From a virus: a stretch of 30,439 bases of DNA. The stretch lies in IMG/VR virus record IMGVR_UViG_3300036908_000235, positions 1-30,439 of that record, one strand, 5' to 3'. Each line of letters opens with the position of its first letter. Within the stretch, counting starts at the first letter, position 1. Below are positions 3-29,865 of this stretch, one piece after another. Position numbers and translations under genes: made by a program. The notes below the pieces were generated by a model. That model was not told where the DNA came from and did no database searches. It saw only the letters and a list, made by a program, of their open reading frames with translations.

Positions 3-500
3 GTGGATGAATCGCGGGAAGTGATGCGCGAGGACGGAAAGTGCTGGACCGATGACGGGAAAACCGCCGCTGACTTCGAGGGACACCCGCTCTGGCCAAC
101 CCGGTGCGCGTGCGGTTACGAGTTTCAAGAAAAAGATGAGTGGCAACTCTTTGGCTCTCACATCTACCGCCGCGCCGACAACGGCGAGGAAACGACGCTG
201 CGAGATGCCGCGGACGGCGCCATGTGGGACGCGACCTGGTTTCACGGTTGCCCCGGCTGGTGCGGCGCGGATGGCCGCTCCATCATGTGCCGGGTGCCCA
301 CGAATCACGACTGGCACATTGATGGACCATGCAGCAATTGCACGCGTCCGAACCAGCCGCACAAGTGCTGGGTGCGCCACGGCGTTCCGCCCAATTTGAC
401 CGTGGACAAAAACGGCGATACCTGCGCTGCCGGCGCGGGCTCGATCCTTACACCGGCCTGGCACGGCTTCCTGCGCAACGGCGAACTGGTGGCATGCTGA
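3..500 (+). CDS. Conserved Cys-rich phage protein, probably cut by the window edge
   Basis: A reading frame of at least 165 codons is open from the window edge. The first possible start is GTG at 3, but the gene may begin upstream. The protein is rich in Cys, Trp and His: CACGYEF near residue 35, a GCPGWCG pair near 80, a CSNC pair near 110, then CWVRHG, and a final Cys. This suggests one or more structural zinc sites. The pattern (IYRR, TLRDA, AMWDA, HDW, CWVRHGVPPNLTVDK, WHGFL) matches, from memory, an uncharacterised family common beside capsid and portal genes of long-tailed phages. No enzymatic function is known to me. Its stop overlaps the next gene by one base (TGATG), which suggests translational coupling. 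Confidence 0.75.
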   Translation: MDESREVMREDGKCWTDDGKTAADFEGHPLWPTRCACGYEFQEKDEWQLFGSHIYRRADNGEETTLRDAADGAMWDATWFHGCPGWCGADGRSIMCRVPTNHDWHIDGPCSNCTRPNQPHKCWVRHGVPPNLTVDKNGDTCAAGAGSILTPAWHGFLRNGELVAC

Positions 501-4892: not shown

Positions 4893-5345
4893 ATGAAATT
4901 CGCCCGCAGATCGTTTGCTTTTGTCGCCGTCCTGGTCGCCCTGGCCGGCATCATCACTTTTCTTCCCCTCAACCCGGTGCACGCCACCGGCCCAACCGCG
5001 CTCACTCCGGTGACGGTCAGAATCAACAATTATCAGGTGCAGGCCGGCGATCTCGTTGTCGTCCCCGCCGCCTGCGATGCCGTCAACGGTAACTCCTACA
5101 TTTACACCGGGCAGGAGATCCTGATGGTCTATAACTCCGGAGGCAGCGGCTACACCTACACCGTGACTCCGGCGACCGACGCCTATGGCGCCCAGAACAC
5201 TACGCTCAGCGCGGTGGCCATCGCGGCCGGGGCCTTCGACTTTGTCCAGATGAGCAATCCGCAAGGCTGGATTACTTCGGGGAACCTGATCAACCTCACC
5301 TGCAGCAACGCGGCCGTCAAATTTGCCGTCCTGCGCCACAGCTAA
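4893..5345 (+). CDS. Decoration/spike-like phage protein with signal peptide
   Basis: ATG 4893 follows AAGGAGAATGTC. The 150-residue protein begins MKFARRSFAFVAVLVALAGI, with a hydrophobic core and a likely cleavage site after VHA near residue 31. The mature part (GPTALTPVTV, then NSYIYTGQEILMVYNSGGSG, then VKFAVLRHS) resembles a roughly 115-residue beta-rich phage family normally found without a leader among head and tail genes. It may be a head decoration or accessory structural protein. The added export signal is odd, because capsid parts assemble in the cytoplasm. The signal peptide is seen directly; the family match is from memory. Confidence 0.7.
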   Translation: MKFARRSFAFVAVLVALAGIITFLPLNPVHATGPTALTPVTVRINNYQVQAGDLVVVPAACDAVNGNSYIYTGQEILMVYNSGGSGYTYTVTPATDAYGAQNTTLSAVAIAAGAFDFVQMSNPQGWITSGNLINLTCSNAAVKFAVLRHS

Positions 5346-5359
5346 ACCGAGGTTCTCCG

Positions 5360-5731
5360 ATGCCGCTGCGCCGCATGATCACCACGGACCCCAACTCCAT
5401 CGGTGCCATTAACCGGCAGATCACTGTCTTCGCGCCGGGAACCCGCAATGTCACCGATGGAGGCACTTTGCCGCCCAGCCCACTCTTCACGAGCTGGGCC
5501 AGCATTCGCACGCTCCGCGGCGACGAGCTGGACCGGGCGCAGCAGATTGCCCAGGACGTCCAGCACTGCCTCCGGATTCCCTACCAGTGGGGCGTGCCGG
5601 TGACGGGGGACATGACGGTGGGCTTCGAGAAGCGCACGTTTCAAATCCGCTACATCGCCGATCCCGACGAGATGCACACCTGGCTCGATCTCTACTGCGC
5701 CGAGGTCGGTCAGAACGCGGGAGGATCCTAA
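5360..5731 (+). CDS. Head closure / head-tail joining protein (SPP1 gp16-like)
   Basis: ATG 5360 follows GAGG at a seven-base spacing. The 123-residue length is normal for the family (Phage_H_T_join / Hc1). Typical features are an N-terminal basic MPLRRMIT, FTSWASIRTLRGDELDRAQQ and QVQ-like QDVQHCLRIPYQ, then FEKRTFQIRYIADPDEMHTW. The protein forms the ring that closes the connector after DNA packaging and docks the tail. The TAA stop overlaps the next ATG (TAATG). Confidence 0.8.
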   Translation: MPLRRMITTDPNSIGAINRQITVFAPGTRNVTDGGTLPPSPLFTSWASIRTLRGDELDRAQQIAQDVQHCLRIPYQWGVPVTGDMTVGFEKRTFQIRYIADPDEMHTWLDLYCAEVGQNAGGS

Positions 5732-6126
5732 TGCCGATTACCCATCGCTTTGGCTGCATCATTCCCGCCGGCGGCAATCCCAACAACGTCACCAGCACAA
5801 ACTGGAACGACGGGCATCTGCGGACGCTGCTGCCCACGGCCTACAGCGCCAACGGGAATATCCCCCCTTGGTCGCTGATCGCGGGCGTCGCCAACGTGGA
5901 GCTGGTCGAAGCCACGGGCACGATCACGCTTACTCTTCCGCCGGCCACCGCGATCGCGGGCGGATTTCCGGGAATGAATGTCCGGTTTATCAACATGGGC
6001 ACGGGCACCATCACCATCACTGACGGCGGCAGCTTCACTTACAAACTCACCACACAGGGCCAGACCGTTCATATCTACGCCTCCAGCATTACCGGTGCGT
6101 GGCAAGTCCTCACTCAGGCGGCCTAA
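5731..6126 (+). CDS. Small beta-rich phage protein
   Basis: ATG 5731 overlaps the preceding stop and has GGGAGG nine bases upstream. The 131 residues start MPITHRFGCIIPAGGNPNNV and continue with NWNDGHL and a series of short beta strands rich in Thr, Ile and Gly (GTITLTLPPATAIAGGFPGM). There is no signal peptide. The NVTSTNWNDGH motif is common near the N-termini of phage fibre and baseplate proteins, so it may be a fibre base or adaptor for the large protein downstream. Confidence 0.65.
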   Translation: MPITHRFGCIIPAGGNPNNVTSTNWNDGHLRTLLPTAYSANGNIPPWSLIAGVANVELVEATGTITLTLPPATAIAGGFPGMNVRFINMGTGTITITDGGSFTYKLTTQGQTVHIYASSITGAWQVLTQAA

Positions 6127-6128
6127 CC

Positions 6129-8942
6129 ATGACGAAGAAAAGTATCCTTGGGGTCCTCGTAACGCTACTTTTGCTGGCCGGAGTATCTTTAGGCCAGGCG
6201 ATCCCGGGTGTGGGGACGCGCGTGGCCAACGGCCCCACCCTGCCCACCAACGCGGGCCAGTACACCATGTTCGTGCTCACCACGGGCACGCCCACGCCCT
6301 ACATCTGCAATAACAACCCCTGCATGGTTTCCGGGGATTGGGTTGCCAGCGGCGGCGGCGGCGGAGGCGGAGGCGGCGCGAACACGGCGCTGTCGAACCT
6401 TTCCGGAACGGCCATCAACACCTCGCTGTTCGCGGCCAGCGGCGTGACCCTGACGCTTTCCGGCTTCAACGGAACCTCGTCGCTGGGTGCAACCGGGGTA
6501 ACCATCGAAGGCGGCACCAGCTATTCGGGCGGTTCGCTGGCGGGACCGGGTGTCGTCATCCAAGGCGGCACGGCGGGGGGAATCGGCGGTAACGGCGGCA
6601 GCGTGAGCATCTTGGGGGGAACTGCGCTGGCCGGCGTGGGCGGTTCCATCTTCCTGACAGCCAACAATGGCGCCGGCTCCAATCAAGGCGGCGGCTCTCT
6701 GTTCCTCAAATCGGGTAGTCCGACCGGGACCGGGAATTATGGCTTCCTGAGCGTCGGGCTCTCGGGCGCCAATTACGTGGGATCGTACACGCCGCTCACC
6801 GGCTTTCAGCAGGGCGCCTACTTCAACGTGGGCAATACTCAGCCGGGCGAGATCGATTTCGTCTCCGGAGCCAGCTCGAACGGCGCCATCCGGATTACGG
6901 GCATGAACTTCGCGTTCTCGCCCGACAACACTTACGACTTTGATCTCAGCACCTACCGGCCGCGCAACGCCTGGTTTGGCGGGAACATCAACGCTGGCGG
7001 CTCCGGAACCTTCACCGGCGCGCTCACTTCGGGGGGCGCCATCACGGGAAATTCGGTGGCCACCAACGGCAGCGGGCCCTGGTCGGTGCAGGGTTCCTAT
7101 GGAACGCTCTCGGTGGCGTCGGCGGGCAAAACGCGTTTTGGCTTTGGACCTCTGGGCCCGCAGTTCTCTTTCAATGGCGGCGCGCTCACCTACTTCGCCA
7201 ACCTCGACAGCGCCGGGGTCAATGTGGTGCAGAACGCAAACACGGCCACCAAGCTGGCCACCGCCGGCACGCCCTGCTCGGGAGAATTCTCCACCGGCGT
7301 AGATCAGTATGGCAACGCGCTCTGCAATGTGCCTCTGACCATTCAATTGCAGCAGTACAGCGCCGGATGCTCGACCATCCCCGGAGTTCCCGGCTACGGG
7401 ATCATGTGCTTTGACCCGACCAGCGGGTTGATGACGGACATCAACAATGGCGGCTGGACGCAGTTCGTGCATTCCAACCTGTTCAACTACAACGCCGACA
7501 CAGTGGAAATGCACGACGGGACGGCCCCTCAGACGTTCAACATCTACGAGAGCTGGACCGATTCCACGGCCAACTTCACTCGCATGCGGCTGGGTTGGGA
7601 CAGCGCCGCAAATTCCTTCGTGGTGGCCGCCGAGTACGGGAGTGTCAGCGGAACTGGAGAGCCGCTGTGCATCTATATGGGCTCCTATGGGGCCGGAGCC
7701 GGGTGCCGCTGGAATTTCAGCGCGGGATCGGCGAGCGTCTTCTACCCGGCGGGCAACAGCACCCAGGACGTCGGCAAAACCGCCAACCAGGTGCGCGATT
7801 TCTATCTGGGGCGGTCACTCTATCTGGGCGGAAGCGCGGGAACGTCCGGCCAGTGCCCGATTTCGGCAGGCCCGGGTGTGGCCCCGGCTTGGGGGAGCTG
7901 CAGCACCGGGTTCTCCTATCCAACTGCCGGGGCGGTACTCTCGACGGGCAGCGCATTCACCTCGGTCGCGGAGACGAACAATTACGTTCTCGTAGGCGTG
8001 AGCGGGGCCTGGACCGCGGCGGCGATCACCGGAGCGATGTTGCCGAACCCCTCGGCGTCGACGCTGGGCGGCGTGGAATCGATCACTTCGGCTTCGCACA
8101 ACTGGGTGGCCTATATCGACACCAGCGGCGTGCCGCACCAGTCGCAGCCGGGCTTCGCGGACATTTCGGGGACGATCTCGGCGGGGCAGTTGCCGAATCC
8201 CTCGGCGTCGACGCTGGGCGGCGTGGAATCGATCACTTCGGCTTCGCACAACTGGGTGAGCTATATCGACACCAGCGGCGTGCCGCATCAATCACAGCCG
8301 ACCCTCGCGGACGTTGCCGCGGGAGTCGCGCCCAGCGGGACTTTCGATTTCACCGGCGCCACGCCCAAGGTGCCAACCGGAACCGCGAACAGCAACAATA
8401 CGAATGCGGCCTCCGAAGCCTATGTGGATACCAACTACATGGGGAATTGGCTGCAGATCGGGCCCCCGAGCAGCGTTGGCTCCAACATCACCGCTGGCGG
8501 CAGCAACGCCACGCACGGGAATATGTTCGAGTTCAACATTCCCTCGGCCATCACCACCGGGCACATCGAGGTTGATGTCACCACTGCCGACAACAGCGCC
8601 AACACGTACGACTTCTGCATTTACAGCGGCGCGGCCAGTTCGACCGTGAATCTGCTCGCGCACACGGGCGCGATCGCAGGTAGCTCGATCAACGGCGGCG
8701 CGACCGGTTATACAAATCTAGCGTGGACTTCCACGGCGACATTGGCTCCGGGACGCTATTACCTGTTTCTCTTCGGCAACGAGGCCACGCCCACGCTCAC
8801 CATTGGCGGGACGACGTTCACCAGCTTTTATCACAATTCCAGTCAGGCGATTACCCCGACCGCCGGCGCGTGCTCCGCGACCTTGAGCAGCAGCGCGGAC
8901 AGTCCGGGGCAGCCGACGTTCCCGTGGTTTACGTTGAATTAG
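6129..8942 (+). CDS. Large exported fibre-like protein
   Basis: This 937-residue protein starts two bases after the upstream stop. It has a signal peptide (MTKKSILGVLVTLLLLAGV, likely cut after GQA). A decaglycine hinge lies near residue 75. Gly/Ser/Thr-rich repeats follow (GGSVSILGGT, TFTGALTSGGAITGN, NANTATKLATAGTPC), as in trimeric tail fibres. Two nearly identical 50-residue repeats (SASTLGGVESITSASHNWV) lie near residues 640-730. The end is a compact beta domain (NMFEFNIPSAITTGHIEVDV, APGRYYLFLFGNE) that could bind a receptor. The fibre layout and the leader together are unusual. The protein may be surface-displayed or secreted rather than attached to the virion. Confidence 0.7.
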   Translation: MTKKSILGVLVTLLLLAGVSLGQAIPGVGTRVANGPTLPTNAGQYTMFVLTTGTPTPYICNNNPCMVSGDWVASGGGGGGGGGANTALSNLSGTAINTSLFAASGVTLTLSGFNGTSSLGATGVTIEGGTSYSGGSLAGPGVVIQGGTAGGIGGNGGSVSILGGTALAGVGGSIFLTANNGAGSNQGGGSLFLKSGSPTGTGNYGFLSVGLSGANYVGSYTPLTGFQQGAYFNVGNTQPGEIDFVSGASSNGAIRITGMNFAFSPDNTYDFDLSTYRPRNAWFGGNINAGGSGTFTGALTSGGAITGNSVATNGSGPWSVQGSYGTLSVASAGKTRFGFGPLGPQFSFNGGALTYFANLDSAGVNVVQNANTATKLATAGTPCSGEFSTGVDQYGNALCNVPLTIQLQQYSAGCSTIPGVPGYGIMCFDPTSGLMTDINNGGWTQFVHSNLFNYNADTVEMHDGTAPQTFNIYESWTDSTANFTRMRLGWDSAANSFVVAAEYGSVSGTGEPLCIYMGSYGAGAGCRWNFSAGSASVFYPAGNSTQDVGKTANQVRDFYLGRSLYLGGSAGTSGQCPISAGPGVAPAWGSCSTGFSYPTAGAVLSTGSAFTSVAETNNYVLVGVSGAWTAAAITGAMLPNPSASTLGGVESITSASHNWVAYIDTSGVPHQSQPGFADISGTISAGQLPNPSASTLGGVESITSASHNWVSYIDTSGVPHQSQPTLADVAAGVAPSGTFDFTGATPKVPTGTANSNNTNAASEAYVDTNYMGNWLQIGPPSSVGSNITAGGSNATHGNMFEFNIPSAITTGHIEVDVTTADNSANTYDFCIYSGAASSTVNLLAHTGAIAGSSINGGATGYTNLAWTSTATLAPGRYYLFLFGNEATPTLTIGGTTFTSFYHNSSQAITPTAGACSATLSSSADSPGQPTFPWFTLN
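8041..8311 (+). repeat. Tandem 150-base repeat inside the fibre gene
   Basis: The segments 8041-8161 and 8191-8311 are nearly identical and start exactly 150 bases (50 codons) apart. Both code for the SASTLGGVESITSASHNW block and a following DTSGVPHQSQP. Most differences are single bases near the end of the unit, which points to recent duplication or recombination. Confidence 0.85.
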
Positions 8943-9035
8943 GCCATATTGGGAAGGTGCCGATTCGGGAAGGGATGCGAAATAAAGATCACGAGATCAT
9001 GACGGTTCCACAGGGCTGCACGGTAGGGTGATTCA

Positions 9036-9052
9036 AAGCCACGTAGTGGCTT
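9036..9052. repeat. AGCCAC/GTGGCT hairpin
   Basis: AAGCCAC and GTGGCTT are perfect inverted arms around GTA. They match the arms of the palindrome at 2861-2880. The element lies in the 137-base gap before the next exported protein. Confidence 0.7.
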
Positions 9053-9079
9053 ATCTCAGCAAAAAGGAAAACAACACCG

Positions 9080-10084
9080 ATGTTTCGACGAACCCTCAGT
9101 TCTTCCGCGGTGCTGGCGCTTCTGCTAGCACTATCGAGCTTCGCCCATGCCGGCCTCAGCGAGATCAGGGCCGATTTTCCGAGTCAGACGGCGGCACTCT
9201 CCGCGACGGCGATCTTCTCCGCGCCGTCGAGCAGCGCTAACTACCTGGTTTGCGCCTCACTCCAGCAATCGCCCGCCAATGCCATGACCGCAACCGTGGC
9301 CTGGACGGACGAAAACGGCAACGCCCAGAGTTTCTCTCTCGTGGACTCCCAGGCGGGATGCTCCCTGATCCGCAATGAAGCCAGCACTGCGGCGACGATC
9401 GCTGTGTCCGGTACTCCCTATCCCATTTACTCGGTGTATGTCTTCGGCTTTGGCTTTTGGCCGGGGCAACCCCAGAAGCAGGCGGGCATCACGGAAACGT
9501 TCAACTCCACCATCACCGCCGGTAACAGTTCGGGCTACATCGCGGCTGGCGATACGCTCGTCGCTGTCACCAGCGCATCCGGCAGCGGATGCACATGGTC
9601 GGTCGGCTCCTACCCCTCGAACATTACCGGCATCGGCGTCGGCATCGTCGCCACCAACGAATCCAGCAGCGCCAACGTATTCAGCAACACCAGCTCAGGG
9701 TGCAGCGAGACGGTGGTGGCCCTCAACTTCGGAACTCCGGGCACCGGCTCGGGGCCGCTCACGGATTACGAATACAACTTGATCGGCTGGACCGACGCCA
9801 CGGACCCAAATTACAAGACCGTCTTCACGGCAGGGAGTTCGGGAGCTTCGATCCTCATGGGAGCAAACATTGCCGAGCAGCCAAACGGCGGAAGCGTGAG
9901 CGAAGAGCTTAACACTCCCCTCGGGGACGTGACGGCCGGTCCCGGGGGCGCCCCTGCCAGCGAGACTGTGCCCGGTTCTGTCGCTGCCAATGCCGTGTTT
10001 CAGATCCTCACCCTAAACACTCCGGGGTCGCCCTGGGGAACGGCACCAGCCTACAGCGCAGAGACGGACGTCATTCAGTTCTGA
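9080..10084 (+). CDS. Exported beta-rich protein of unknown function
   Basis: ATG 9080 has AAGGA about ten bases upstream. The 334-residue protein starts MFRRTLSSSAVLALLLALSS with likely cleavage after AHA near residue 24. The mature protein is rich in Ser, Thr, Gly and Ala, with short strands (TATVAWTDENGNAQSFSL, YSVYVFGFGFWPG) and a few Cys residues that could pair outside the cytoplasm. No catalytic motif is recognised. It could be a secreted adhesin or fibre accessory. A strong terminator follows 25 bases after the stop. Confidence 0.65.
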   Translation: MFRRTLSSSAVLALLLALSSFAHAGLSEIRADFPSQTAALSATAIFSAPSSSANYLVCASLQQSPANAMTATVAWTDENGNAQSFSLVDSQAGCSLIRNEASTAATIAVSGTPYPIYSVYVFGFGFWPGQPQKQAGITETFNSTITAGNSSGYIAAGDTLVAVTSASGSGCTWSVGSYPSNITGIGVGIVATNESSSANVFSNTSSGCSETVVALNFGTPGTGSGPLTDYEYNLIGWTDATDPNYKTVFTAGSSGASILMGANIAEQPNGGSVSEELNTPLGDVTAGPGGAPASETVPGSVAANAVFQILTLNTPGSPWGTAPAYSAETDVIQF

Positions 10085-10109
10085 CCACTGGCAACTTTCT
10101 CCCTTCAAA

Positions 10110-10139
10110 GGGCGCTGCTTCGGCAGCGCCCGTTTTATT
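10110..10139 (+). terminator. Rho-independent terminator
   Basis: GGGCGCTGC (10110-10118) and GCAGCGCCC (10123-10131) form a perfect 9-bp stem with a TTCG tetraloop, followed by GTTTTATT. This is the clearest terminator in the window. It splits the exported block between the 9080 gene and the glycosidase, whose GGAG site comes just after the T run. Confidence 0.85.
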
Positions 10140-10149
10140 GGAGCCGTCC

Positions 10150-12054
10150 ATGATCCTTCTGCTGCAACGATCGAAGTTTGGCCCGTGGCTCTTTGGCGCG
10201 ATCCTGTTGCTGTGCGCGTGCTGCGGGCACGCCCAGACGCCAATGAATGGGAGCGCGACGATCTCTGGCTTCGGCGAGTTCGACTCCGGGCCGGGCATCA
10301 TTCCCCCGACTCTGTTTGGGCTGCATTTTTCGCTGACCCGTAATGTGGGATCAGGCTATACCGGGATCCCCTGGCCTAACATTTCCGGGACAAATCTGGT
10401 CTTCGGTTCGCTGCGCCTCTGGGACGCCAACACCAACTGGACGCTGATGAATCAGACAGCCGGAAACTATAATTTTGCTTCGCTCGACAGCTATCTCGCG
10501 GCTGCCAAGACCAACGGCCTCTCTGACGTCGTGCTCACGCTGAGTTCGACGCCCACGTTCATTTCGAGCGATCCCACCAACGCCAACTGCGACTATGGCT
10601 CCGCCTCGGGACTCACGTTTCAGGAAGCCAGCCCGACTACTCTGAACGGCAGTTGCGGAGCGCCTACTGATATAGCGACCAACGGGACCGGGACCGACGC
10701 GACCTGGAAAAGCTTTATCACCAACCTGGGCCAGCACATCGCCGGCCTCAGCACTACCACCTATGCCACGGTGAGCTGGTTCGAGATGTGGAACGAATTC
10801 ACACGCGGCAACACCGGAAGCTGTGGTGAAGTGGAGATTCCGACCTCGTGGGAAGGGACGTGCGCCCAGCTCGTCCGCATGGCGAACGATGCCGACTGCA
10901 TTCTGACCGGACGCGGCACCATCGCGGCGACGGGCGCACCCTGCACCAACCTGGCCCTGCTGCCCAACGCGTTGATGCTCACTCCGGACGCGGTGCCACA
11001 GCAGCCCGATATCGTCTCCTTCGGCACTTACATAGGAACCTTTGGCGCGCTGAGTTATGGGCTGAGCGGCTCGGAAGTGGACAGGATCGCAGTCCATGCC
11101 TATGCCTACTCCGGCCTCGGCACCACCATGCCGGATTCGAGCGCCGCATTCAGCAATACTGGCTCGAGCCTGCCGGCGCAGTGGGGCAATCTGCAGGGCG
11201 TGCTTCCGGGCAACGCTTTTGGGCTTCCGGTCTGGAGCACGGAAGGGAGCTGGGCCAGCGCCGCGAACCTGCCCGATCCCGACATGATGATGGGCTATAT
11301 TGCCCGCTACTATCTGGTGGGTTGGTCTTCGGGCTTCCGGCGGCTCTACTGGTACTCCGCCAACAATTCTTACGGCCGCCTGATCTGGCAGAACGGGGAA
11401 ACCGAAACTTCCGCCACGTCGCCATACGGCGCCGCCGGCACCTGCGGCACGACCGCCGGCTGCCCCGTTCTCAACTCCGCCGGCACACCGGTGGCAAACG
11501 CCTGGATCGCCGTCTACACCTGGATGGTGGGCAATGAGATGACCACCGGCTGCTCGCCCGATGCCACCGGGAACCTGTGGCAGTGTGGATTGGTCACCGG
11601 AGGATCAACGCCGGCGATCGCAGTGTGGGATTCGAGCCAGAGCTGCAATTCGGGGACCTGCACTAGCAGTGGTTTGGCAACGGCGCAGACTGTGACATTT
11701 GTGGCTGCAGTGGGTGGCACAGCTCAGGCGATCGCAGCCTCGGCGAGTTGGGTGACGGCCGGCGCCACGGTTGGAGGCTATGCCTCATTTGTCGGCTCCG
11801 GAGCGCCTTCCGGCACCTTCTTGGTGACGGGCATCACGACGACGACGACGACGAATGACACTCTCCTGCTGGCGGATCCAAAGAGCCTGATCGGGGCCGC
11901 ATCGAGTGTTTCAGTGGAGGCCTTTGCCCCTCTGAATCTGGGCGTCGCACCGGGTTCCTTTGGCCATTACGAAACCTTGGATAACACCCCGACGCTGCAC
12001 GCGCTCACCGGGACAGTCACCATCGGCTGGAAGCCGATCCTATTAGTGCCATGA
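10150..12054 (+). CDS. Exported clan-A (GH39/GH5-like) glycoside hydrolase
   Basis: ATG 10150 follows GGAG at a seven-base spacing. The 634-residue protein has a leader (GPWLFGAILLLCACCGHAQ). A TIM-barrel glycosidase pattern follows: GSLRLWD in the first strands, then WFEMWNEF with the likely acid/base Glu216, IAVHAYAY, and VWSTEGSW with the likely nucleophile Glu365. The NE plus E arrangement is the clan-A signature; the exact family is uncertain. After residue 490 a Thr/Ala-rich segment, including six ACG codons at 11836-11853, seems to be inserted into the C-terminal beta domain. That domain ends LTGTVTIGWKPILLVP. It probably cuts surface or soil polysaccharide outside the cytoplasm. The stop overlaps the next start (ATGA). 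Confidence 0.75.
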   Translation: MILLLQRSKFGPWLFGAILLLCACCGHAQTPMNGSATISGFGEFDSGPGIIPPTLFGLHFSLTRNVGSGYTGIPWPNISGTNLVFGSLRLWDANTNWTLMNQTAGNYNFASLDSYLAAAKTNGLSDVVLTLSSTPTFISSDPTNANCDYGSASGLTFQEASPTTLNGSCGAPTDIATNGTGTDATWKSFITNLGQHIAGLSTTTYATVSWFEMWNEFTRGNTGSCGEVEIPTSWEGTCAQLVRMANDADCILTGRGTIAATGAPCTNLALLPNALMLTPDAVPQQPDIVSFGTYIGTFGALSYGLSGSEVDRIAVHAYAYSGLGTTMPDSSAAFSNTGSSLPAQWGNLQGVLPGNAFGLPVWSTEGSWASAANLPDPDMMMGYIARYYLVGWSSGFRRLYWYSANNSYGRLIWQNGETETSATSPYGAAGTCGTTAGCPVLNSAGTPVANAWIAVYTWMVGNEMTTGCSPDATGNLWQCGLVTGGSTPAIAVWDSSQSCNSGTCTSSGLATAQTVTFVAAVGGTAQAIAASASWVTAGATVGGYASFVGSGAPSGTFLVTGITTTTTTNDTLLLADPKSLIGAASSVSVEAFAPLNLGVAPGSFGHYETLDNTPTLHALTGTVTIGWKPILLVP

Positions 12055-14672
12055 AACGATCTCTTCTCATCCTCGCTCTCGCCCTTCTGGCGATCCCGTT
12101 TGCCCACGCCCAAGTCAGCTACTACGTGGACTGCGCGAACGGATCAAACTCCAATGCCGGCACCAGTCCGGGGACGGCATGGAAGGGCCTGCACGCCGCC
12201 AACTTGGCCGCCTTCAATGGCGGAGACTCGCTCTTCTTGAAACGCGGATGCGTCTGGAACTGGTATCTGGCGCCACTCGTCACCGCCAGCGGGAGCAGCG
12301 TCTTCACCATTGGTGCCTACGGCAATGGCGCGCCGCCCACCTTGCAAAACGAAGTGGCGGTCCCAACTTCAAGCCCTGCCACCGCCTGGGTCACAGTGAG
12401 CGGGCACACCAACGTCTACGCGATCCCGGTGTACTCCCCCAGCGAAGGCACCGGATTTTCGCCTTATCGCATCGATGCGGTGAAACTGAACGGGATCTGG
12501 GGAAACTGCGTGGGCATGAACGATGCCGCCAATGACGATCAATATTGCGGCTCGACCAGCGCCACCACGGGCGTGGCCGCGCTCACCGCGAACGGGCAGT
12601 GGTATTACGACGGGAACTACAGCCAGGGCGGCAGCTATGGCGGCGGCCGGAACTGCACCAGCCAGACCAACCCCACGGGAAACCCCAATGGGGACTGCGG
12701 CAATCTCTACGTTTACAGCTCCACTGGAGTGCCCACCAACGTCACCGTCACGCTGGACGGATCCACGAATCTGATCAAGATTGCGGGGACCAGCTACGTC
12801 ACCATCGAGCATGTGCGGCTGCTGAACTACTCCTGGTACGGGATCGAGGTTTCGGGCGCATCCGACCATCTGATTTTCGACAACATTTTCGCCGACACCG
12901 AAGTGCCCTTCAACTTCCACGGGACTGGCTTCTATCTGCATCCTTCCGGGACCGCGACCAGCATTCAACTTCTGAACACGGAATCGCATCGCGGCTACTA
13001 CGGCTACCAGATCGGGCTTGGCGGTACCACCATGGCCGCGAACGCGGTCACGCTCTCCAACTGCAAAGCTTATTTCAATCGCGATGCGGGGCTGGCCGAC
13101 CTGACGGTCAGCGGGCTTTCCGTGGCTTATGACCACTGCCACTTCTACGGCAACGGGGTGGGATCGCCGATTCCAAACGATATCTCCATCGACCCTAACA
13201 CCAGCGCATGCACCGGCGGCTCACACATTTGCACGCCCGGAGGAACGGCCGGCGCGGGCAACATCGCGCCCAACACCGACCCCAAGGTTATCTCCTGGGC
13301 GAACTACACGCCCCGCTTCACGCTGCAATATCGCGGGCCGGGCTATGCTTTTGGGTCCGATGCTGCGTTGAACCTGCAACTCTCGGCGCTGGGCAGCGCG
13401 CCGCTTTCGATTGGGATTGGGACGAACTATTCCTTCTCGGCGAGTCTGATCCCGCAATTCAACACCTGGCTGGCCGATGGCTACGACCTGAACCTGATGG
13501 GCCTGTCGGCGGCGAGCTACGCCAACAATGGCACCTTCAACGTTCTCTATACGGGGACCTGCACCACGACGGCCCTCACCGTAAACGGTCCTCCAGCCAC
13601 CAGCTTCGCCATCGCCGCCTCCGGTGGCACTTGTCCCGGAGGCGACAGTTTCAGCTTCACGATCACCAGCTCCTCCACGCTCGCGCAATTGAAAGCGGCG
13701 TTGCTGGCCAATGGCAAATACACGGTGGCCTGGGTGCAGCCTTGCGGTTCCTGCGCCTGGGTGGACGGCAGCGCAATGCTGGCGCAAGACCTGGCAACCG
13801 CGAGCGGCGCCTATGTGGGCCCGGTGGGGGGCGGTTTTGTGGCGCCCGGTTATTTCGTGCTCTTGAATCCCGACCAATTTCTCAAAGACGAGACGGGGCT
13901 GTCGCAGGATTGGGTGCAAACCAATTTGACCGGGTGGGGATCCACCTGGGTGTATCTCTATCCCGGAACCCTGTTCAACCCCACCTCTCTCGGGGTAACG
14001 ACAATCGAGCAGGACGTATCCGGCACGGCTGGAGGCACCTACCAGTCGCCCAACTTCGCCGGCGCTGTGGGCGCCAACACCATGCAGCTCGGGCGCGACG
14101 GCCTCTCCGGAGCCTTCGACGCGGTGGCTTCCAACGGCGTGGACGCGCAAGGGCTGACCACCTACTCGCTTTCCGGGTGGAACAATCTTTCGCCCCTGGC
14201 CTTGCAGGCGGCCATTCAGTCGGCGGTAGAGAAGGCCGCGATCTGGGGCGTCCCACAAACCCTCTACTGGCAGTCTGGCGATCTCACCAACCAGCAGCTC
14301 GCGCTGATCGTTGCGGACCTGCAGGCGAGCGGCGCCACGCTGATGACCAACAGCGCGCTGGTGAATTTTCTGACTACTTCTCCGCGGACTCAGGTGGCCT
14401 CGCTTCCCCTGTCCTCCGGCTTCTGTTCCTGCTGGGCGTGGACGCCGGAAACCGGCATCGTCAACTTGCGGCCGACTTATCTGTCACCCACGGTGGGCAC
14501 GGCCAATGGCACAGTCTGCGCGTCCTATCCCGTCGACGTGAACGGCGTGACCCAGCCTCAGACCTGGAGCGCCACCAACGCAAAAACTTCCGCCGTAGTG
14601 AGCAAGACGGGATGCGACATTGGAGCGCAGGCGCTCGTTCCGTCCTTCACCGGCCTCAGACCAGGACACTGA
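12051..14672 (+). CDS. Exported beta-helix protein with degenerate polysaccharide-deacetylase-like C-terminus
   Basis: This 873-residue protein overlaps the glycosidase stop by four bases. It has a signal peptide (MKRSLLILALALLAIPFAHA). The next segment, YYVDCANGSNSNAGTSPGTA, is the typical start of right-handed parallel beta-helix proteins (pectate-lyase and tailspike fold). Helix coils run to about residue 420 (IEHVRLLNYSWYGIEVSG, then further coils). From about residue 450 the order of segments recalls NodB-type deacetylases: FNTWLADGYDLNLMGLSAAS, later WVYLYPG, then ALQAAIQSAVEKAAIWGVPQ. The expected HSxSH metal motif is absent, with NLMGLSAASY in its place, so the domain is probably inactive or a binding module. 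It may act on the same glycan as its neighbour. Confidence 0.7.
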   Translation: MKRSLLILALALLAIPFAHAQVSYYVDCANGSNSNAGTSPGTAWKGLHAANLAAFNGGDSLFLKRGCVWNWYLAPLVTASGSSVFTIGAYGNGAPPTLQNEVAVPTSSPATAWVTVSGHTNVYAIPVYSPSEGTGFSPYRIDAVKLNGIWGNCVGMNDAANDDQYCGSTSATTGVAALTANGQWYYDGNYSQGGSYGGGRNCTSQTNPTGNPNGDCGNLYVYSSTGVPTNVTVTLDGSTNLIKIAGTSYVTIEHVRLLNYSWYGIEVSGASDHLIFDNIFADTEVPFNFHGTGFYLHPSGTATSIQLLNTESHRGYYGYQIGLGGTTMAANAVTLSNCKAYFNRDAGLADLTVSGLSVAYDHCHFYGNGVGSPIPNDISIDPNTSACTGGSHICTPGGTAGAGNIAPNTDPKVISWANYTPRFTLQYRGPGYAFGSDAALNLQLSALGSAPLSIGIGTNYSFSASLIPQFNTWLADGYDLNLMGLSAASYANNGTFNVLYTGTCTTTALTVNGPPATSFAIAASGGTCPGGDSFSFTITSSSTLAQLKAALLANGKYTVAWVQPCGSCAWVDGSAMLAQDLATASGAYVGPVGGGFVAPGYFVLLNPDQFLKDETGLSQDWVQTNLTGWGSTWVYLYPGTLFNPTSLGVTTIEQDVSGTAGGTYQSPNFAGAVGANTMQLGRDGLSGAFDAVASNGVDAQGLTTYSLSGWNNLSPLALQAAIQSAVEKAAIWGVPQTLYWQSGDLTNQQLALIVADLQASGATLMTNSALVNFLTTSPRTQVASLPLSSGFCSCWAWTPETGIVNLRPTYLSPTVGTANGTVCASYPVDVNGVTQPQTWSATNAKTSAVVSKTGCDIGAQALVPSFTGLRPGH

Positions 14673-14680
14673 ACCGAAAT

Positions 14681-14775
14681 CAGCGGGGCGCGCCATCCAG
14701 CGCGGCCCGCAAGCCGCAGGAGCCGACCGACTGGCTCTCGCTCGGAGGAACCGCCGCAAAGCGGTTTTCGAGAAA
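14681..14775 (+). repeat. Dispersed intergenic repeat (family B), leader of the tail terminator
   Basis: The 26 bases at 14699-14724 (starting AGCGCGGCCC, ending CAGGAGCC) recur exactly at 28740-28765. In both places the repeat ends with a GCGGTTTTC block a few bases before an ATGAT start codon. Related copies lie at 18571-18660, 29835-29862 and, inverted, 15342-15369. The repeat makes up the whole leader of the downstream gene. Confidence 0.8.
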
Positions 14776-15291
14776 ATGATAGAAAGCGGACTCTCTATCT
14801 GGGCGCTGGGCAATCCCGGCATCACTCCGTTTCTGGGGCAGACGCAGAGTGACAAGTCGAACGGGATCTACAGCGCTTTTTATTTTTCCTACCTGCCCAA
14901 GGAACCGACCGGGGCCATTCCCGGAATCGTCCTGGACCGGCTCAACTCGCCCGACGCCGAAGACACGATTGATCCCCGCGATGCCCTGCCCGGAGACATC
15001 ATCAAAGGCCGCTTTCAGTTTGGCAGTGTGGCCTCGGACGGCCCGCAGAATCCGAACCAGCAGACCAATGGATATCTGGCGGCCGCCGCTTTGTCGCGCG
15101 CCCTTCGGCGGCAACTCACCGGCCTCGCCACGGGCAAAGCGGTGCTGCCCGACATCAAGGGAAATCCGGCCATCGAGATCTCGAACGTTTACGGCTGGGA
15201 CGAGTTCGACGCCCACTACGAGCTGGGCGGCTACGGCTACCTCATGCGCCGCATCCTGCAAGTCACCATCGAGTTTCAGGAACTCACCTAG
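14776..15291 (+). CDS. Tail terminator / tail completion protein (DUF3168-like)
   Basis: ATG 14776 is chosen because MIESGLSIWALGNPGITPFL is the usual beginning of this family (small tail completion proteins such as lambda gpU or SPP1 gp17 relatives). The 171 residues are somewhat longer than the usual 120-140. The rest includes ALRRQLTGLATG and a C-terminal beta section ending RRILQVTIEFQEL. The protein caps the finished tail tube and makes the joint to the head. Binding-site sequence before the start is weak (GAGAAA), and the leader is repeat DNA. Confidence 0.65.
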   Translation: MIESGLSIWALGNPGITPFLGQTQSDKSNGIYSAFYFSYLPKEPTGAIPGIVLDRLNSPDAEDTIDPRDALPGDIIKGRFQFGSVASDGPQNPNQQTNGYLAAAALSRALRRQLTGLATGKAVLPDIKGNPAIEISNVYGWDEFDAHYELGGYGYLMRRILQVTIEFQELT

Positions 15292-15341
15292 CTTTTTCCC
15301 GAAAAACCGCGTGGCATTCGATCTTCGAGCCAGAGCAATCA

Positions 15342-15369
15342 GGCTCCTGCGGCGCGCTGCGCGGGCTGG
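15342..15369 (-). repeat. Inverted copy of dispersed repeat
   Basis: These 28 bases (starting GGCTCCTGCG) are the exact reverse complement of 29835-29862. They lie in the 152-base gap 15292-15443, with no gene on either strand. Confidence 0.85.
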
Positions 15370-15443
15370 GCCGCCCGCTCCGCTTTTCGGCTGCGGATCG
15401 ATTGCAAATTCGATTCCCACATTCTCTACCACGGAGAAAATCC

Positions 15444-16118
15444 ATGAAGATACGACACGTCGTGCTATTAGGGGCGCTCCTGACGAGCGCTTTTTGTTTT
15501 GCACAAAGCGAGAAGCTGCAAACGCGCAGCGGGATCTCACGCCATTATTCCGGCCACCGAGGAACCGCGGAAGATCTAAGCACGATTCGCATTCGCGCCG
15601 TGCGCGTCCATCACCTGCCGCACTGGCTGCCCTTCAACCAGAAGTGGCTGTCGGTTCCGATGCAGGTGAACATGCACATCGTGGGACGCCATTCGAACGG
15701 CCGGATCTTCGCCGATCGCTGGATTCACAACCTGCGCACGACGGGCGGAGCGGACTGGCAGGCCCTCGCCATGGCCAGCACTTCTACGCCGCCGGCGACG
15801 GTGAACTATATCGCGCTCAGCAACAATTCCACTCCGCCCGCCGCCGGCGACTGCGCCGCCGGGTCCAGCACTTGCACTCTGACCGGCGAGATCGCCACCA
15901 ACGGATTGAACCGGCATCAGGGAACCTTCGCGCACACCAACAGCACGGCCACCTGGACCCTGGCGTGGACCTGGACGGCGACAGGGACGCAATCGGTGCA
16001 GGAGGCGGGCATGTTCAACGCTTCCAGTTCCGGGACAATGGTGTTTGAAGCTTCCTTCTCGCAGGTGAATTTGGTCAACACCGACACTCTGACGGTGACC
16101 TGGACAGTTTCGTATTAG
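15444..16118 (+). CDS. Tail-associated-type protein with signal peptide
   Basis: ATG 15444 has CGGAGA seven bases upstream. The 224-residue protein begins MKIRHVVLLGALLTSAFCFA, a signal peptide with likely cleavage after FAQ or CFA. After a basic segment (IRIRAVRVHHLPHWLP), the body has a pattern known from phage tail-region proteins: TTGGADWQALAMAS, VNYIALSNNSTPPAAGD, LTGEIATNGLNRHQGTFAHT, EAGMFNASSSGTMVFEASFS and TLTVTWTVSY. Relatives normally lack a leader and are probably minor tail components. Here the protein would be exported. Confidence 0.65.
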   Translation: MKIRHVVLLGALLTSAFCFAQSEKLQTRSGISRHYSGHRGTAEDLSTIRIRAVRVHHLPHWLPFNQKWLSVPMQVNMHIVGRHSNGRIFADRWIHNLRTTGGADWQALAMASTSTPPATVNYIALSNNSTPPAAGDCAAGSSTCTLTGEIATNGLNRHQGTFAHTNSTATWTLAWTWTATGTQSVQEAGMFNASSSGTMVFEASFSQVNLVNTDTLTVTWTVSY

Positions 16119-16127
16119 GAGCAAGTT

Positions 16128-16772
16128 ATGAGGACCTCCGGACCGCAAAACGTGAACCTGCAGGAACGCTGGATGGTGGCCTGGCTGGATCACGGCTGCG
16201 TTCCTCTGGGGCTCTTCGGCAGCGATTTCGGTTTCGTGGATCAGCAAATGATTTTCCTGCGCCACGAACACAAACGCTGGGAGCGGCAGCAGGCGATGGC
16301 GGATTATCCCGTGCTCCATCATGTGCGGGTCGCGCTGAGAACCGCCAAAGGCTACCGGATGGCGCGATGGGAGAAAGTTGCGCTGCTGGCCGACTTGCTG
16401 TTGTGGGGCTATCCCCAGAGCATCGCCATTGCCACGGCAGGCGTCGACCCCCAAACCGCCTACAGCTTTCGGGACCGCATGATTCATGTGGGATTGTTGG
16501 GCGAGCACTGCTCTTGCGGGCGGCCATTCAGAAACCACTATGGCGTGTGCCGAGGCAGCGCCATGAGCGCGCGCAACGGCCTAGCCGTGAGCGATGGAGA
16601 AAAGCGGGCATTCCTTTCCGCTCTCGAAGGCGCCGTGCGGGACGCGAGAGGCCGCATCAACCGGCGCGAGTTAGCGAAGCGCCTGGGCGTAACCGAAAAC
16701 CGGGTGAGGCATCTGCAACGGCGGACGCGGGGGACATCATGCTCAAGCGCTTCTTCCTCCTTGGCTGCCTGA
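16128..16772 (+). CDS. HTH/zinc DNA-binding regulator
   Basis: ATG 16128 follows AGGAGC at a five-base spacing. The 214-residue protein has two helix-turn-helix-like parts: ALLADLLLWGYPQSIAIATA with DPQTAYSFRDRM around residues 85-120, and RRELAKRLGVTENRVRHLQR at about 180-200. Between them a possible zinc site, CSCG (residues 128-131) with HYGVC near 141, recalls transposase or phage regulator zinc fingers. It is probably a transcription regulator, for example of late genes. The last 34 bases overlap the start of the next, exported protein in another frame, so the two are tightly coupled. Confidence 0.65.
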   Translation: MRTSGPQNVNLQERWMVAWLDHGCVPLGLFGSDFGFVDQQMIFLRHEHKRWERQQAMADYPVLHHVRVALRTAKGYRMARWEKVALLADLLLWGYPQSIAIATAGVDPQTAYSFRDRMIHVGLLGEHCSCGRPFRNHYGVCRGSAMSARNGLAVSDGEKRAFLSALEGAVRDARGRINRRELAKRLGVTENRVRHLQRRTRGTSCSSASSSLAA

Positions 16773-18019
16773 TCGTGCCGGCGTGGGCTGGGACCCCCCA
16801 CTCCGTCAATCTCAACGAGAACCTGGTCACCAATGATGGCGGCCTGCAACTGCTTTCCGCGGGATACGCCCCCAACGAATTTGCCTGCACCGCGGACGCG
16901 ATCACAACCCAAGGACTGCCAAACCTCAGCCTGAACGAAGGCCCTTCGGTGCTGGTGAACACGGTGGCCGGGCAGCAGAACCAGGCGGGGAACTGGTACC
17001 GGGTCTATCGCGCCACCAGCATCTCAGGCCCCTTCACCCTCATCGCGGATTGCATTTACCTGGGCAACTATCTCGATGCCACGGTGCAGAGCGGCGTCAC
17101 GTACTACTACCAGGTGACGGCGATGCAGTGGGGCGTGGAAAGCGCTCCTTTCGATCAGGCCACGGTAACTGTGCCGGTGTTCGACACGCTGATCGCATTC
17201 CGCGGCCGCAACGCGACGATATCGACTTCCCTGACCACTTCCGACGCCGCGACAAGAGTCCACGGCTATAACCCGTCCTCAAGCGAGAGCCTGACCACTT
17301 CTGACGCGCTGGGCCGGCAAGTGGGCTGGAAGCAGGGTTTGAGCGAAACGCTGAGCACGAGCGCCGCGCTCTCGGCGGTGGATCCGGCGAACGCCTCCGC
17401 CAGCCTCACCGAGGATCTGACCACTTCGGATGCGGCGGCATCGTCGCAGATCCTGACGCGCAGCCTGACCGAGAATCTTTCCACCTTTGCCGCGCTGGGC
17501 GATGTGATCGGGCCGGCGCTGCCGCCATCGGCTCCGTTCCCCACCTTGAACTGGCTCGACGATCAGGGGATGGCGGCGCTGGGGAGTTGCCCCTTCACGC
17601 TGAAAGTGATTGGCGGCAACTTTACCCCGCAGAGCGTGGTGAGCTGGAACGGGGGTACGCGCCAAACCACCTATGTGAGTTCCCAGATTCTGCAGGTTGG
17701 GATCACCAGCGCAGACCTGTCTGTGGGCGGGAATTTCCCTCTCACGGTGACCAATGCACCCGGCACTGTTGGCGGCGGCAAAACGTTTTCCGTGGTGGCT
17801 GGGGCACCCACTGTCACCGGCACCTACGTTCTTGGCGCCACCCTCGTCCTCGACGGGACCAATTTCGTGCCACGCAACACGGTTGTGCTGTGGAACGGAA
17901 CGGCGCTGGCCACGAACTGGTTTTCTGCCACCCGAGTGCAGGCGTTTCTGCCCGCCGGCGTGCGGGCGATCGGCAGCAACGCTGTGACCGTGACCAATAG
18001 CGGCTGTCCGGCGAATTGA
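16739..18019 (+). CDS. Exported protein with Fn3-like and IPT/TIG-like domains
   Basis: ATG 16739 lies 34 bases before the end of the regulator gene. The 426-residue protein has a signal peptide (MLKRFFLLGCLIVPAWAG). A fibronectin-III-like domain covers about residues 75-145 (YRVYRATSISGPFTLIADC, GVTYYYQVTAMQ). Five repeats of about 20 residues with the core SLTTSDAL follow at 165-260. Then come two IPT/TIG-like beta domains (FTLKVIGGNFTPQSVVSWNG; LVLDGTNFVPRNTVVLWNGT). Such a protein is usually a cell-surface or secreted binding protein. In phages, Ig-like folds also decorate tail tubes, and tube genes follow directly. Confidence 0.65.
   Translation: MLKRFFLLGCLIVPAWAGTPHSVNLNENLVTNDGGLQLLSAGYAPNEFACTADAITTQGLPNLSLNEGPSVLVNTVAGQQNQAGNWYRVYRATSISGPFTLIADCIYLGNYLDATVQSGVTYYYQVTAMQWGVESAPFDQATVTVPVFDTLIAFRGRNATISTSLTTSDAATRVHGYNPSSSESLTTSDALGRQVGWKQGLSETLSTSAALSAVDPANASASLTEDLTTSDAAASSQILTRSLTENLSTFAALGDVIGPALPPSAPFPTLNWLDDQGMAALGSCPFTLKVIGGNFTPQSVVSWNGGTRQTTYVSSQILQVGITSADLSVGGNFPLTVTNAPGTVGGGKTFSVVAGAPTVTGTYVLGATLVLDGTNFVPRNTVVLWNGTALATNWFSATRVQAFLPAGVRAIGSNAVTVTNSGCPAN
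17213..17512 (+). repeat. Five ~20-codon repeats (SLTTSDAL type)
   Basis: The repeated CTGACCACTTC-like blocks start at 17231, 17291, 17351, 17417 and 17477, giving spacings of 60, 60, 66 and 60 bases. They encode SLTTSDAA, SLTTSDAL, TLSTSAAL, DLTTSDAA and NLSTFAAL. Confidence 0.75.
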
Positions 18020-18028
18020 GGTTGGATC

Positions 18029-18502
18029 ATGGCGAATCCTGTCTGGTACACCGGCCGCGGCACAGTGCTTTCCTACTCGCTGGACGGCCAGACCTGGGTC
18101 GCTCTGCCGCAGCTCCAGCAGTTCGAGCCCAGCGGCTCGAAGCAGACCATGGTGGATCAGACCAACCTGCAAACTCAGGGCAACTTTACCCAGCCTCAGG
18201 CGGTCCAGGTGGATGCCGGGGAGGTTAGCTTCGCAGGCGTGTATGGTGGCCAGATTCAGCAGCTCCTCCTGGGCCAGTACCACGGCGCGTTGACACTGCT
18301 CTACTGGCAGGCGCAGCTCGTCGATGGCACGTTCTACACCTTCCAGGCCTTCGTGAGCGAGTTCAAACCTTACAGCGTGAAGTGGAACAAGACCTACGGA
18401 TTCAGCGGCAAATTGCGGATCGTGGGCGGCATGGAAAGCCCGCTCTCGGCCTTCCAGCCCAACGCATTCGACCCCAACGCCTTCCAGGTGGTTTTGATCT
18501 AG
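18029..18502 (+). CDS. Major tail tube-like protein, copy 1
   Basis: ATG 18029 has GAGG seven bases upstream. The 157-residue length suits siphophage tail tube subunits. Key blocks are YTGRGTVLSYS, ALPQLQQFEPSGSKQTMVD, EVSFAGVYGG, QAQLVDGTFYTFQAFVSEFK and KTYGFSGKLRIVGG. These match the alternating beta strands of tube proteins polymerising into the tail lumen. Copy 2 at 18679 shares the GRGT, PQLxxFxxSGSK and LVDGT blocks. Confidence 0.75.
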   Translation: MANPVWYTGRGTVLSYSLDGQTWVALPQLQQFEPSGSKQTMVDQTNLQTQGNFTQPQAVQVDAGEVSFAGVYGGQIQQLLLGQYHGALTLLYWQAQLVDGTFYTFQAFVSEFKPYSVKWNKTYGFSGKLRIVGGMESPLSAFQPNAFDPNAFQVVLI

Positions 18503-18678
18503 GAGCTGCCTGATCCGTCACGGTGGCTAGTTTTCTAGCTTTCTAGCCCACGAATTTCCCCACAAGTTCACAGCGCGGGCCGCCCGCTTTTCAGCGGCGT
18601 GCGCGAGCCACAGGAGCCGAACCGCGCTCCCCTGGCCGGAAATGCCAAGCGGTTCAAACCAAACCAAGGAGAACACCC
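18503..18678. repeat. Repeat-filled gap between tail tube genes
   Basis: No gene is seen in these 176 bases. GGCTAGTTTTCTAGCTTTCT at 18525-18544, continuing AGCC, is a CTAG-rich element like the one at 29787-29811. The stretch 18571-18660 is a diverged copy of family B (CAGGAGCCGA, then CAAGCGGTT). The leader AACCAAGGAGAACACCC gives the next gene a good ribosome binding site. Confidence 0.6.
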
Positions 18679-19140
18679 ATGCCAGCAAACCCGGTTTCGT
18701 ATCCCGGTCGTGGTACCACGATCGGATTCTCAGTTCTTCCTCTCGCCAGCCCTGCGGTCTATGTAGCCATGCCGCAACTGGAAAAGTTCGATCGCTCTGG
18801 ATCGAAAACCGAAACTGACGATGTGACCTGTCTCGACACTCCGGGCAACAATAAAACGCCCGCGCCCGTCGTGGTGGATAACGGGAAATACACCGCCGAA
18901 GGCGTGTATGACCCGCAGAATCCCAACATCGTCGTGATGCAGGGCTACCAGCAGAACATGACGCAGCTCGGCTACCAGATCGTGCTGGTGGACGGCACGA
19001 CCCTCACCGGTTTGTGCTACGTGACTCAATTCGAGGCCCCCAAAATCGACCGCTACAAGCGCAACCGATTCAGCTTCGAGATCGACATCTTCGGCGTCGA
19101 AGTGTTGGTCCCGCAGGGCGGCTCTGGCATCAACGAGTAG
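18679..19140 (+). CDS. Major tail tube-like protein, copy 2
   Basis: ATG 18679 follows AAGGAG at an eight-base spacing. The protein has 153 residues. It is a clear paralog of the 18029 product: NPVSYPGRGTTIGFS, AMPQLEKFDRSGSKTETDDV, YTAEGVYDPQNP, QIVLVDGTTLTGLCYVTQFE and RFSFEIDIFGVEVLV. It may be the main tube subunit, with copy 1 a minor one, or both may form a mixed tube. The stronger ribosome binding site hints at higher expression of this copy. Confidence 0.75.
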   Translation: MPANPVSYPGRGTTIGFSVLPLASPAVYVAMPQLEKFDRSGSKTETDDVTCLDTPGNNKTPAPVVVDNGKYTAEGVYDPQNPNIVVMQGYQQNMTQLGYQIVLVDGTTLTGLCYVTQFEAPKIDRYKRNRFSFEIDIFGVEVLVPQGGSGINE

Positions 19141-19167
19141 GGCTGTCCGGTTTGGTTCCATGGGCGC

Positions 19168-19189
19168 GGGGCGGACGCTTGTCCGCCCC
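19168..19189. repeat. 9-bp perfect hairpin
   Basis: GGGGCGGAC and GTCCGCCCC are perfect inverted arms around GCTT. No T run follows, so a terminator is uncertain; it looks like an intergenic repeat. It lies 36 bases before the next start. Confidence 0.7.
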
Positions 19190-19225
19190 CGTCTCCTGCT
19201 ACCATCCCCACCAGAGGCTCCAACC

Positions 19226-19693
19226 ATGAGAAAAACTTTGCTCAACCTGTTCGCCGTGCTGCTGCTGCCGCATGCTCTGGCCTTTGGCCAGGCCTCGGCT
19301 ACGGAGCCGTCGAATCACAAGACCATCAAAGTGCCGGTCCCGGCCGGCGATCACAACCCGGAAGTGGCGGCGCTACAGAAAAACGATGCGACCCCGCCCG
19401 ACTTCACCCTGACCGAACTGCAGCACGCCAAGCTCGATGCCGCCCGGCGCGACATCTGGCACTGGCAGGACAATCTCAACCGGTCGCTGAACGAGTTCGG
19501 CGCCCTGTGCCAGGAAGCGGGCAAAGAAAACAAGTGGCCGCCCATCACCTGTAATTGGGACACGCTACTGGTGACACCGCAACCCAAGCCCCCAGGTCCG
19601 CCCGCTGGAAATCCAGCCCCGGCTGTCAACCCGGCGCCGCCCGCGGCAAAAGAAAATTCTCCGCCGGCCGCGACCTCGCCTCCAAAAAAATAA
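19226..19693 (+). CDS. Exported Pro-rich protein of unknown function
   Basis: ATG 19226 starts a 155-residue protein with a signal peptide (MRKTLLNLFAVLLLPHALAF, likely cut after GQA). A helical middle part (LTELQHAKLDAARRDIWHWQ, ending NKWPPITCNW with two Cys residues) is followed by a C-terminal 40-residue Pro/Ala-rich tail. The arrangement of leader, short helix and proline-rich tail is loosely like a periplasmic outer-spanin, but there is no lipobox and no inner partner beside it. The ribosome binding site is weak (AGAGG about ten bases before). Confidence 0.6.
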   Translation: MRKTLLNLFAVLLLPHALAFGQASATEPSNHKTIKVPVPAGDHNPEVAALQKNDATPPDFTLTELQHAKLDAARRDIWHWQDNLNRSLNEFGALCQEAGKENKWPPITCNWDTLLVTPQPKPPGPPAGNPAPAVNPAPPAAKENSPPAATSPPKK

Positions 19694-29775: not shown

Positions 29776-29865
29776 AAACCGCTTCTAGCTCTTAGCTATT
29801 AGCTCTTAGCTCAATCCCAAAACAGAGCGGGCGTCCAGCCCGCGCAGCGCGCCGCAGGAGCCGAT
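29774..29865. repeat. Cluster of repeats after the tail gene
   Basis: GAAAACCGCTT (29774-29784) is the reversed end of family B, also present at 21972-21982. AGCTCTTAGCTATTAGCTCT then TAGCT (29787-29811) is a short TTAGCT tandem. The 28 bases 29835-29862 are the exact reverse complement of 15342-15369 and supply the GGAGC site for the next gene. Confidence 0.75.

Follow-up and report, generated by a model that had tools for sequence, protein, structure and literature searches.

Why should a soil phage place eight genes with predicted export leaders among those for its neck and tail, when the fibres and accessory virion proteins of tailed phages are taken to be produced, to fold and to be attached within the cytoplasm? 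The question is raised by the viral record IMGVR_UViG_3300036908_000235, whose whole 30,439-nt stretch of DNA was analysed and is called here the window. A preliminary description of it had suggested that the eight products may be a surface or secreted apparatus, expressed during lysogeny or late infection, rather than as ordinary fibres.

The gene cluster and its leader-bearing products

The window is a siphovirus-type structural gene cluster. An essentially identical contig of 48,172 bp, IMGVR_UViG_3300048824_000135, extends it by 18.4 kb upstream, and this extension encodes – several of them identified by reading and position – the small and large terminase subunits, a portal, a ClpP-like protein and an HK97-type major capsid protein, along with a glycosyltransferase/epimerase cluster. 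Within the window, gene order runs from a head–tail adaptor through 4893 (genes are named by their first position) and Hc1 to a cassette of large genes and a putative tail terminator, and continues with two tail-tube genes, a neck protein, the tape measure and the distal tail protein (Table 1). The cassette and structural genes are separated by gaps of -4 to 152 nt; wider ones precede 16739 (620 nt) and 18679 (about 175 nt).

Table 1. Genes of the window discussed in the text. A slash within a motif marks the predicted cut; cysteines of leader-bearing proteins are those of the mature form.
Feature	Position	Strand	Leader (predicted cut)	Cys	Remarks
Small beta-sandwich protein, 150 aa	4893..5345	+	yes (VHA/TG, at about 31/32)	2	phrog_16194-like; between head–tail adaptor and head closure
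Head closure Hc1	5360..5731	+	no		phrog_25, E 8e-14
131-aa protein	5731..6126	+	no		without family match
Fibre-like protein, 937 aa	6129..8942	+	yes (GQA/IP)	12
Protein, 334 aa	9080..10084	+	yes (AHA/GL)	4	without family match
Glycosidase-like protein, 634 aa	10150..12054	+	yes (GHA/QT)	12	motifs WFEMWNE and WSTEGS
Right-handed beta-helix protein, 873 aa	12051..14672	+	yes (AHA/QV)	18
Putative tail terminator	14776..15291	+	no	0	homologs 5' of the major tail protein in relatives; without family match
phrog_5417-domain protein, 224 aa	15444..16118	+	yes (CFA/QS)	2	inserted cysteine pair, GDCAAGSSTC
Surface-type repeat protein, 426 aa	16739..18019	+	yes (AWA/GT)	4	NCBIfam choice-of-anchor Z repeats; Fn3-like domain
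Major tail protein	18029..18502	+	no	0	phrog_158
Second tail-tube paralog	18679..19140	+	no		phrog_158
Small Pro-rich protein, 155 aa	19226..19693	+	yes (ALA/FG or GQA/S)	2
Tape measure-like protein, 1230 aa	22267..25959	+	no	0	assigned from its size, its position and homologs in relatives
Distal tail protein	28813..29775	+	no		phrog_1302

All eight candidate genes begin with ATG and encode a basic n-region, a hydrophobic core and an AxA/GxA-like site according to a home-made heuristic scorer – not SignalP – on which every leader call made here depends. The scorer recovers the positive control, Lom, as its one call in phage lambda, makes one call in crAss001 and makes none in a Klebsiella phage, Diva, CV-1-33, Tunturi 3 or Tunturi 5. 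Its background is low: leader-like starts were found in 2 of the 806 pseudo-starts at internal Met residues, in 3.7% of N-termini after shuffling and in 2 of the 171 spurious open reading frames (ORFs) of the window. As predictions, the Sec/SPase-I-type leaders of the eight proteins are thus confirmed, and the earlier remark that neighbouring tail genes lack them holds as well, as none of the ten leaderless structural genes in the same window scored.

Two of the eight do resemble families otherwise known without leaders, as had been noticed. Residues 55–148 of the 4893 product match the profile of phrog_16194, a tail protein (E 1.5e-4); its model is a confident beta-sandwich (pLDDT 92) whose fold resembles that of short (about 115-aa) phage proteins, and against the PDB it gave no significant match, the best being a weak carbohydrate-binding module (CBM)-like hit to CBM_E1 at E 0.028. 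The 15444 product is related to the baseplate hub of HFTV1 both in profile (E 1.3e-8) and in fold (E 1.6e-5), with weaker matches to connector and fibre-adaptor chains. In HFTV1 the hub protein gp44 (9h4p; PMC12494034) carries two copies of the homologous domain within a 954-aa virion protein, whereas 15444 is small, separate and leader-bearing, with an inserted cysteine pair.

For the large exported proteins, Pfam and NCBIfam searches yielded little. By its architecture 6129 appears fibre-like, sharing N- and C-terminal parts with its homologs in two relatives (L044 and L045) around a variable middle. The 10150 product is distantly related to a leaderless GH39-like 'beta-1,4 xylanase' of Caulobacter phage Cr30 (22% over 356 aa, E 4e-10) and may work like a GH39 enzyme, though it is not assigned to that family: Pfam gives no match, and the link to GH39 and clan GH-A is transitive, through the Cr30 protein. 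A weak match to lacto-N-biosidase was obtained for 12051. Single-sequence tblastn searches with 4893, the major tail protein and 6129 found no match among INPHARED phages.

Leaders and cysteines in related phages

Alignment-based scans with 4893 and Hc1 retrieved about 30 related IMG/VR contigs, and in some 20 of these phages leaders are kept on homologs of the window genes, as the preliminary description had suggested should be checked. The leader is present on 20 distinct homologs of 4893 and on 6 members of the 15444 family, and likewise on homologs of 6129, 16739 and 19226 – the last again in L044 and L045; for 9080, 10150 and 12051 no homolog was found among the related phages retrieved. 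Start sites downstream of the leaders, named earlier as an observation that would count against export, find no place in the five families with homologs, and a start-site artefact is ruled out because these homologs retain their leaders. Leader codons, moreover, have a pN/pS of 0.45, which indicates purifying selection. Seven more distant homologs of 4893 are leaderless and begin exactly where the mature protein starts.

Leader-bearing genes also keep company with one another. Almost all leader-bearing phages have, between Hc1 and the tail terminator, one to several extra leader-bearing genes, mostly non-homologous to those of the window. In the 15444 family, leader genes make up 10 of 23 neighbours beside leader-bearing members versus 2 of 227 beside leaderless ones. 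The first cassette gene, 280 aa (cut by a contig end) to 1070 aa long, combines in most of nine phages a common leader and N-terminal domain of about 150 aa with mosaic C-termini, while L048 has mainly the leader in common with the others; the same plan of a conserved N-terminal region and variable distal modules is seen in 6129.

Cysteines offer evidence of a different kind. Mature counts are even in all eight proteins of the window, with 15.8 cysteines per 1000 aa compared with 4.0 in its leaderless genes (pooled across phages, 21.1 versus 9.1). In the 4893 family, where the other cysteine is mostly ancestral, a second one is present in 20 of 20 leader-bearing but 0 of 7 leaderless members. 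A scan for the 15444 family, which is separate from and unrelated to the first despite the kinship within each, gave 80 loci; here the pair in the inserted loop occurs in 6 of 6 leader-bearing and 0 of 46 distinct leaderless members. When leader proteins from the clade and from the Tunturi phages are counted once per cluster, mature cysteine numbers are even in 34 clusters and odd in 4 (p 6e-7), compared with 21 even and 21 odd among leaderless neighbours (Fisher p 2e-4 between the groups); under a crude fixed cut the bias weakens to 29:8 (p 7.5e-4), and all these p-values overstate the significance, since the sequences are related and not independent. We take the gain of cysteines together with the leader, and their mostly even number, as a sign that folding is oxidative and happens outside the cytoplasm. 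As a sequence signature, an even number of cysteines following a leader may also help to detect exported phage proteins that have no homologs.

A parallel is provided by Tunturi 1, 2 and 4, cultured phages of Acidobacteriota (PMC11924767), which are either podoviruses or unrelated siphoviruses but resemble the window phage in bearing leaders on spike/fibre-like genes: gp12, 13, 14, 16 and 17 of Tunturi 1 and 2 – of which gp12, 13, 14 and 17 are the spike/fibre-like ones – and gp113/114 of Tunturi 4, all cysteine-rich except gp16. Phold annotates several of them as tail spike, tail fibre, pectin lyase, tail protein or virion structural protein. The excerpted text of PMC11924767 on these phages makes no mention of leaders and reports no virion proteomics. 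Some of their leader-bearing domains recur in exported proteins of the window phage's relatives, which is the main, though indirect, hint that its host is probably an acidobacterium; the sole match in a scan of genome contigs was leaderless and from Nocardioidaceae.

From probable export to possible docking on the virion

Conserved and unusual leaders, together with the independent cysteine evidence for an oxidising compartment, make export of the eight proteins very likely, as far as sequence can tell. Virions are assembled in the cytoplasm, and exported proteins encounter them only after lysis. Our leading explanation, for and against which we find the case evenly balanced, is that the structural cluster encodes a set of Sec-exported proteins that fold with disulfides in the periplasm, are released by lysis and dock onto the virion. 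The cassette would be expressed late with the structural genes, as their tight same-strand packing suggests; the host Sec pathway would export the eight proteins, whose leaders would be cleaved; and in the periplasm they would acquire disulfide bonds that the cytoplasm would not allow. Lysis would then free them alongside the virions that the cytoplasm has produced, and – in the least certain step – at least the fibre-like proteins, plus 4893 and 15444 as small beta-sandwich or adaptor-like proteins, would dock on the outside of progeny particles. The resulting appendages would be stabilised by disulfides, bind saccharides and carry glycosidases, which would suit EPS-rich soil hosts. Docking is favoured by the virion-type ancestry of 15444, the fibre architecture and the leader-bearing candidate spikes of Tunturi 1, although we know of no other case in which exported proteins dock onto virions after lysis. 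Receptor binding need not rest on the exported set, since the relatives also encode leaderless LamG-like and baseplate proteins (e.g. L003 6436-7542).

The exported apparatus of the preliminary description is upheld as to export, through the leaders and cysteines, but not as something other than ordinary fibres, several of the proteins being built like fibres. Given the fibre-like modular build of several of the eight and the kinship of 15444 to a virion baseplate-hub domain, exported versions of fibres or of accessory proteins of the virion are a better fit than a separate apparatus of secreted proteins.

A broader proposal, which we put forward tentatively and would not yet bet on, is that a group of tailed phages of soil bacteria divides the building of its virions between two compartments, with capsid and tail made in the cytoplasm while Sec export lets the disulfide-bonded fibres, adaptors and glycosidases form in the periplasm; the two sets would be joined only after lysis, ancestral virion proteins having been rerouted by gaining a leader and a cysteine pair together. 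If true, Sec-exported fibre- or depolymerase-like proteins would break the assumption of cytoplasmic fibre assembly and would explain the secreted-enzyme scores that such genes receive in soil viromes. Tunturi 1 and 4 would offer a test system for assembly across two compartments.

The simplest interpretation of a Sec leader is that the proteins are secreted enzymes or adhesins, exported late and left free in the periplasm or medium with none on the particle, where they might degrade the host polysaccharide layer and so aid release or open the way to neighbouring cells. The glycosidase-like 10150, the beta-helix of 12051 with its weak lacto-N-biosidase likeness and the weak CBM-like matches of 4893 all suit this alternative, which we consider less likely than the leading explanation but its main and serious rival. 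It sits less well with the origin of two of the eight in families of small phage proteins that otherwise lack leaders (a virion domain being related to one of them), with a conserved N-terminal module and mosaic C-termini that resemble a docking architecture, and with the leaders on the candidate spikes of Tunturi 1 themselves.

Expression during lysogeny, as a moron-like coat or exclusion apparatus altering the host surface, has a precedent in Lom, an exported protein from the lambda tail region, and one relative (G004) encodes a tyrosine integrase, so the group can be temperate. Against this, each phage has many such genes, most of which are packed tightly or overlap in runs with structural genes, and two of them are modified virion-type families; a sigma-70 scan of the window found nothing promoter-like on the coding strand, although the consensus may not describe the host's promoters. 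This part of the preliminary description thus gained no positive support, and we regard it as improbable.

That the leaders stay uncleaved as membrane anchors, tethering tail components to the inner membrane while they are assembled, is suggested by hydrophobic N-terminal extensions of 35–50 aa on a tail-tube paralog and a small upstream gene in some relatives; with SPase-I-like sites and short cores in all eight, cysteine gain and parity placing the bulk of each protein outside the cytoplasm and the anchored tail-tube type absent from the window, it is a very improbable reading. Least credible of all is that the leaders are annotation or chance artefacts or functionless relics of host exported genes: GC-rich DNA does yield many start codons and some domains are of host surface-protein type, but leaders persist in five families over a low background, their codons are under purifying selection, and the 4893 and 15444 families gained leaders rather than inheriting them from exported host proteins.

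Known systems and further features of the locus

Tail fibres and tailspikes with depolymerase activity are usually synthesised in the cytoplasm without an export signal. The window proteins resemble them in their beta-helix and glycosidase-like modules, conserved N-termini, variable C-terminal modules and location among tail genes, and differ in their Sec leaders, their high and mostly even cysteine content and the position of the cassette, which follows head closure and precedes the tail terminator. Lambda Lom and comparable morons of the tail region are likewise exported, yet Lom is a single outer-membrane protein with no mature cysteine, compared with eight fibre- or enzyme-like, cysteine-rich genes here. 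Agrobacterium phage Milano (PMC10491603) also uses cysteine extensively, in neck, collar, capsid and tail proteins, but its bonds lie largely between virion subunits, and the excerpted text of that report does not mention leaders; in the window, the leaders and the mostly even number of cysteines in each protein suggest instead that proteins are oxidised singly, in an exported compartment. Phages with one exported protein encoded in the tail region (Lom), or with virions rich in cysteine (Milano, PMC10491603), are thus already known, while the literature searched held no description of exported neck- or tail-module proteins, nor of a multi-gene, cysteine-paired exported set inside a structural cluster.

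Several other features of the locus and its relatives deserve mention. One cassette-protein leader is unusually conserved, reading LLFFxLCLVPxGxAQ and persisting even on proteins with dissimilar mature domains (L004:1595, L025:1414, L046:10420, L048:10423 and others); the L046 and L048 proteins agree at 85% over their first 27 residues and have different mature domains. The homologs of 15444 and 16739 are neighbours in L024 and L048, and in the window a 214-aa ORF (16128-16772), without a match in an NCBIfam search, lies between the two and overlaps the start of 16739. The hydrophobic extensions of the second tail-tube paralog and of the small gene upstream of the adaptor usually end in (L/F)FGT (L004:5771-6331, L005:10445-11023, L031:8043-8645 and L048:15661-16224; also L026:8069, L027:7771, L046:7777 and L048:5091); the two tail-tube cases checked have no ATG start at the domain boundary, and the window paralog 18679 lacks the extension.

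Glycosyltransferase, NAD-epimerase-like and further glycosyltransferase genes lie between the capsid and adaptor genes (L011:13984-15704; window 329-1549), where modification of virion or host glycans is a possible role. At L011:7744-11367, the ClpP-like protein runs on into an ORF of 1207 aa that contains cysteine-rich and Ala-rich coiled-coil repeats. A strong terminator-like hairpin (9 pairs, TTCG loop) stands at 10110-10131, between 9080 and 10150. Finally, an intergenic repeat is dispersed through the window at 14682-14780, 18576-18626 and 28723-28817 (+), 15329-15384 (-) and 29834-29875; an exact 23-mer of it was found in this phage and in none of the other viral contigs searched, and in two copies there is a hairpin (GAACCGC...GCGGTTTTC) between GGAGG and the start codon.
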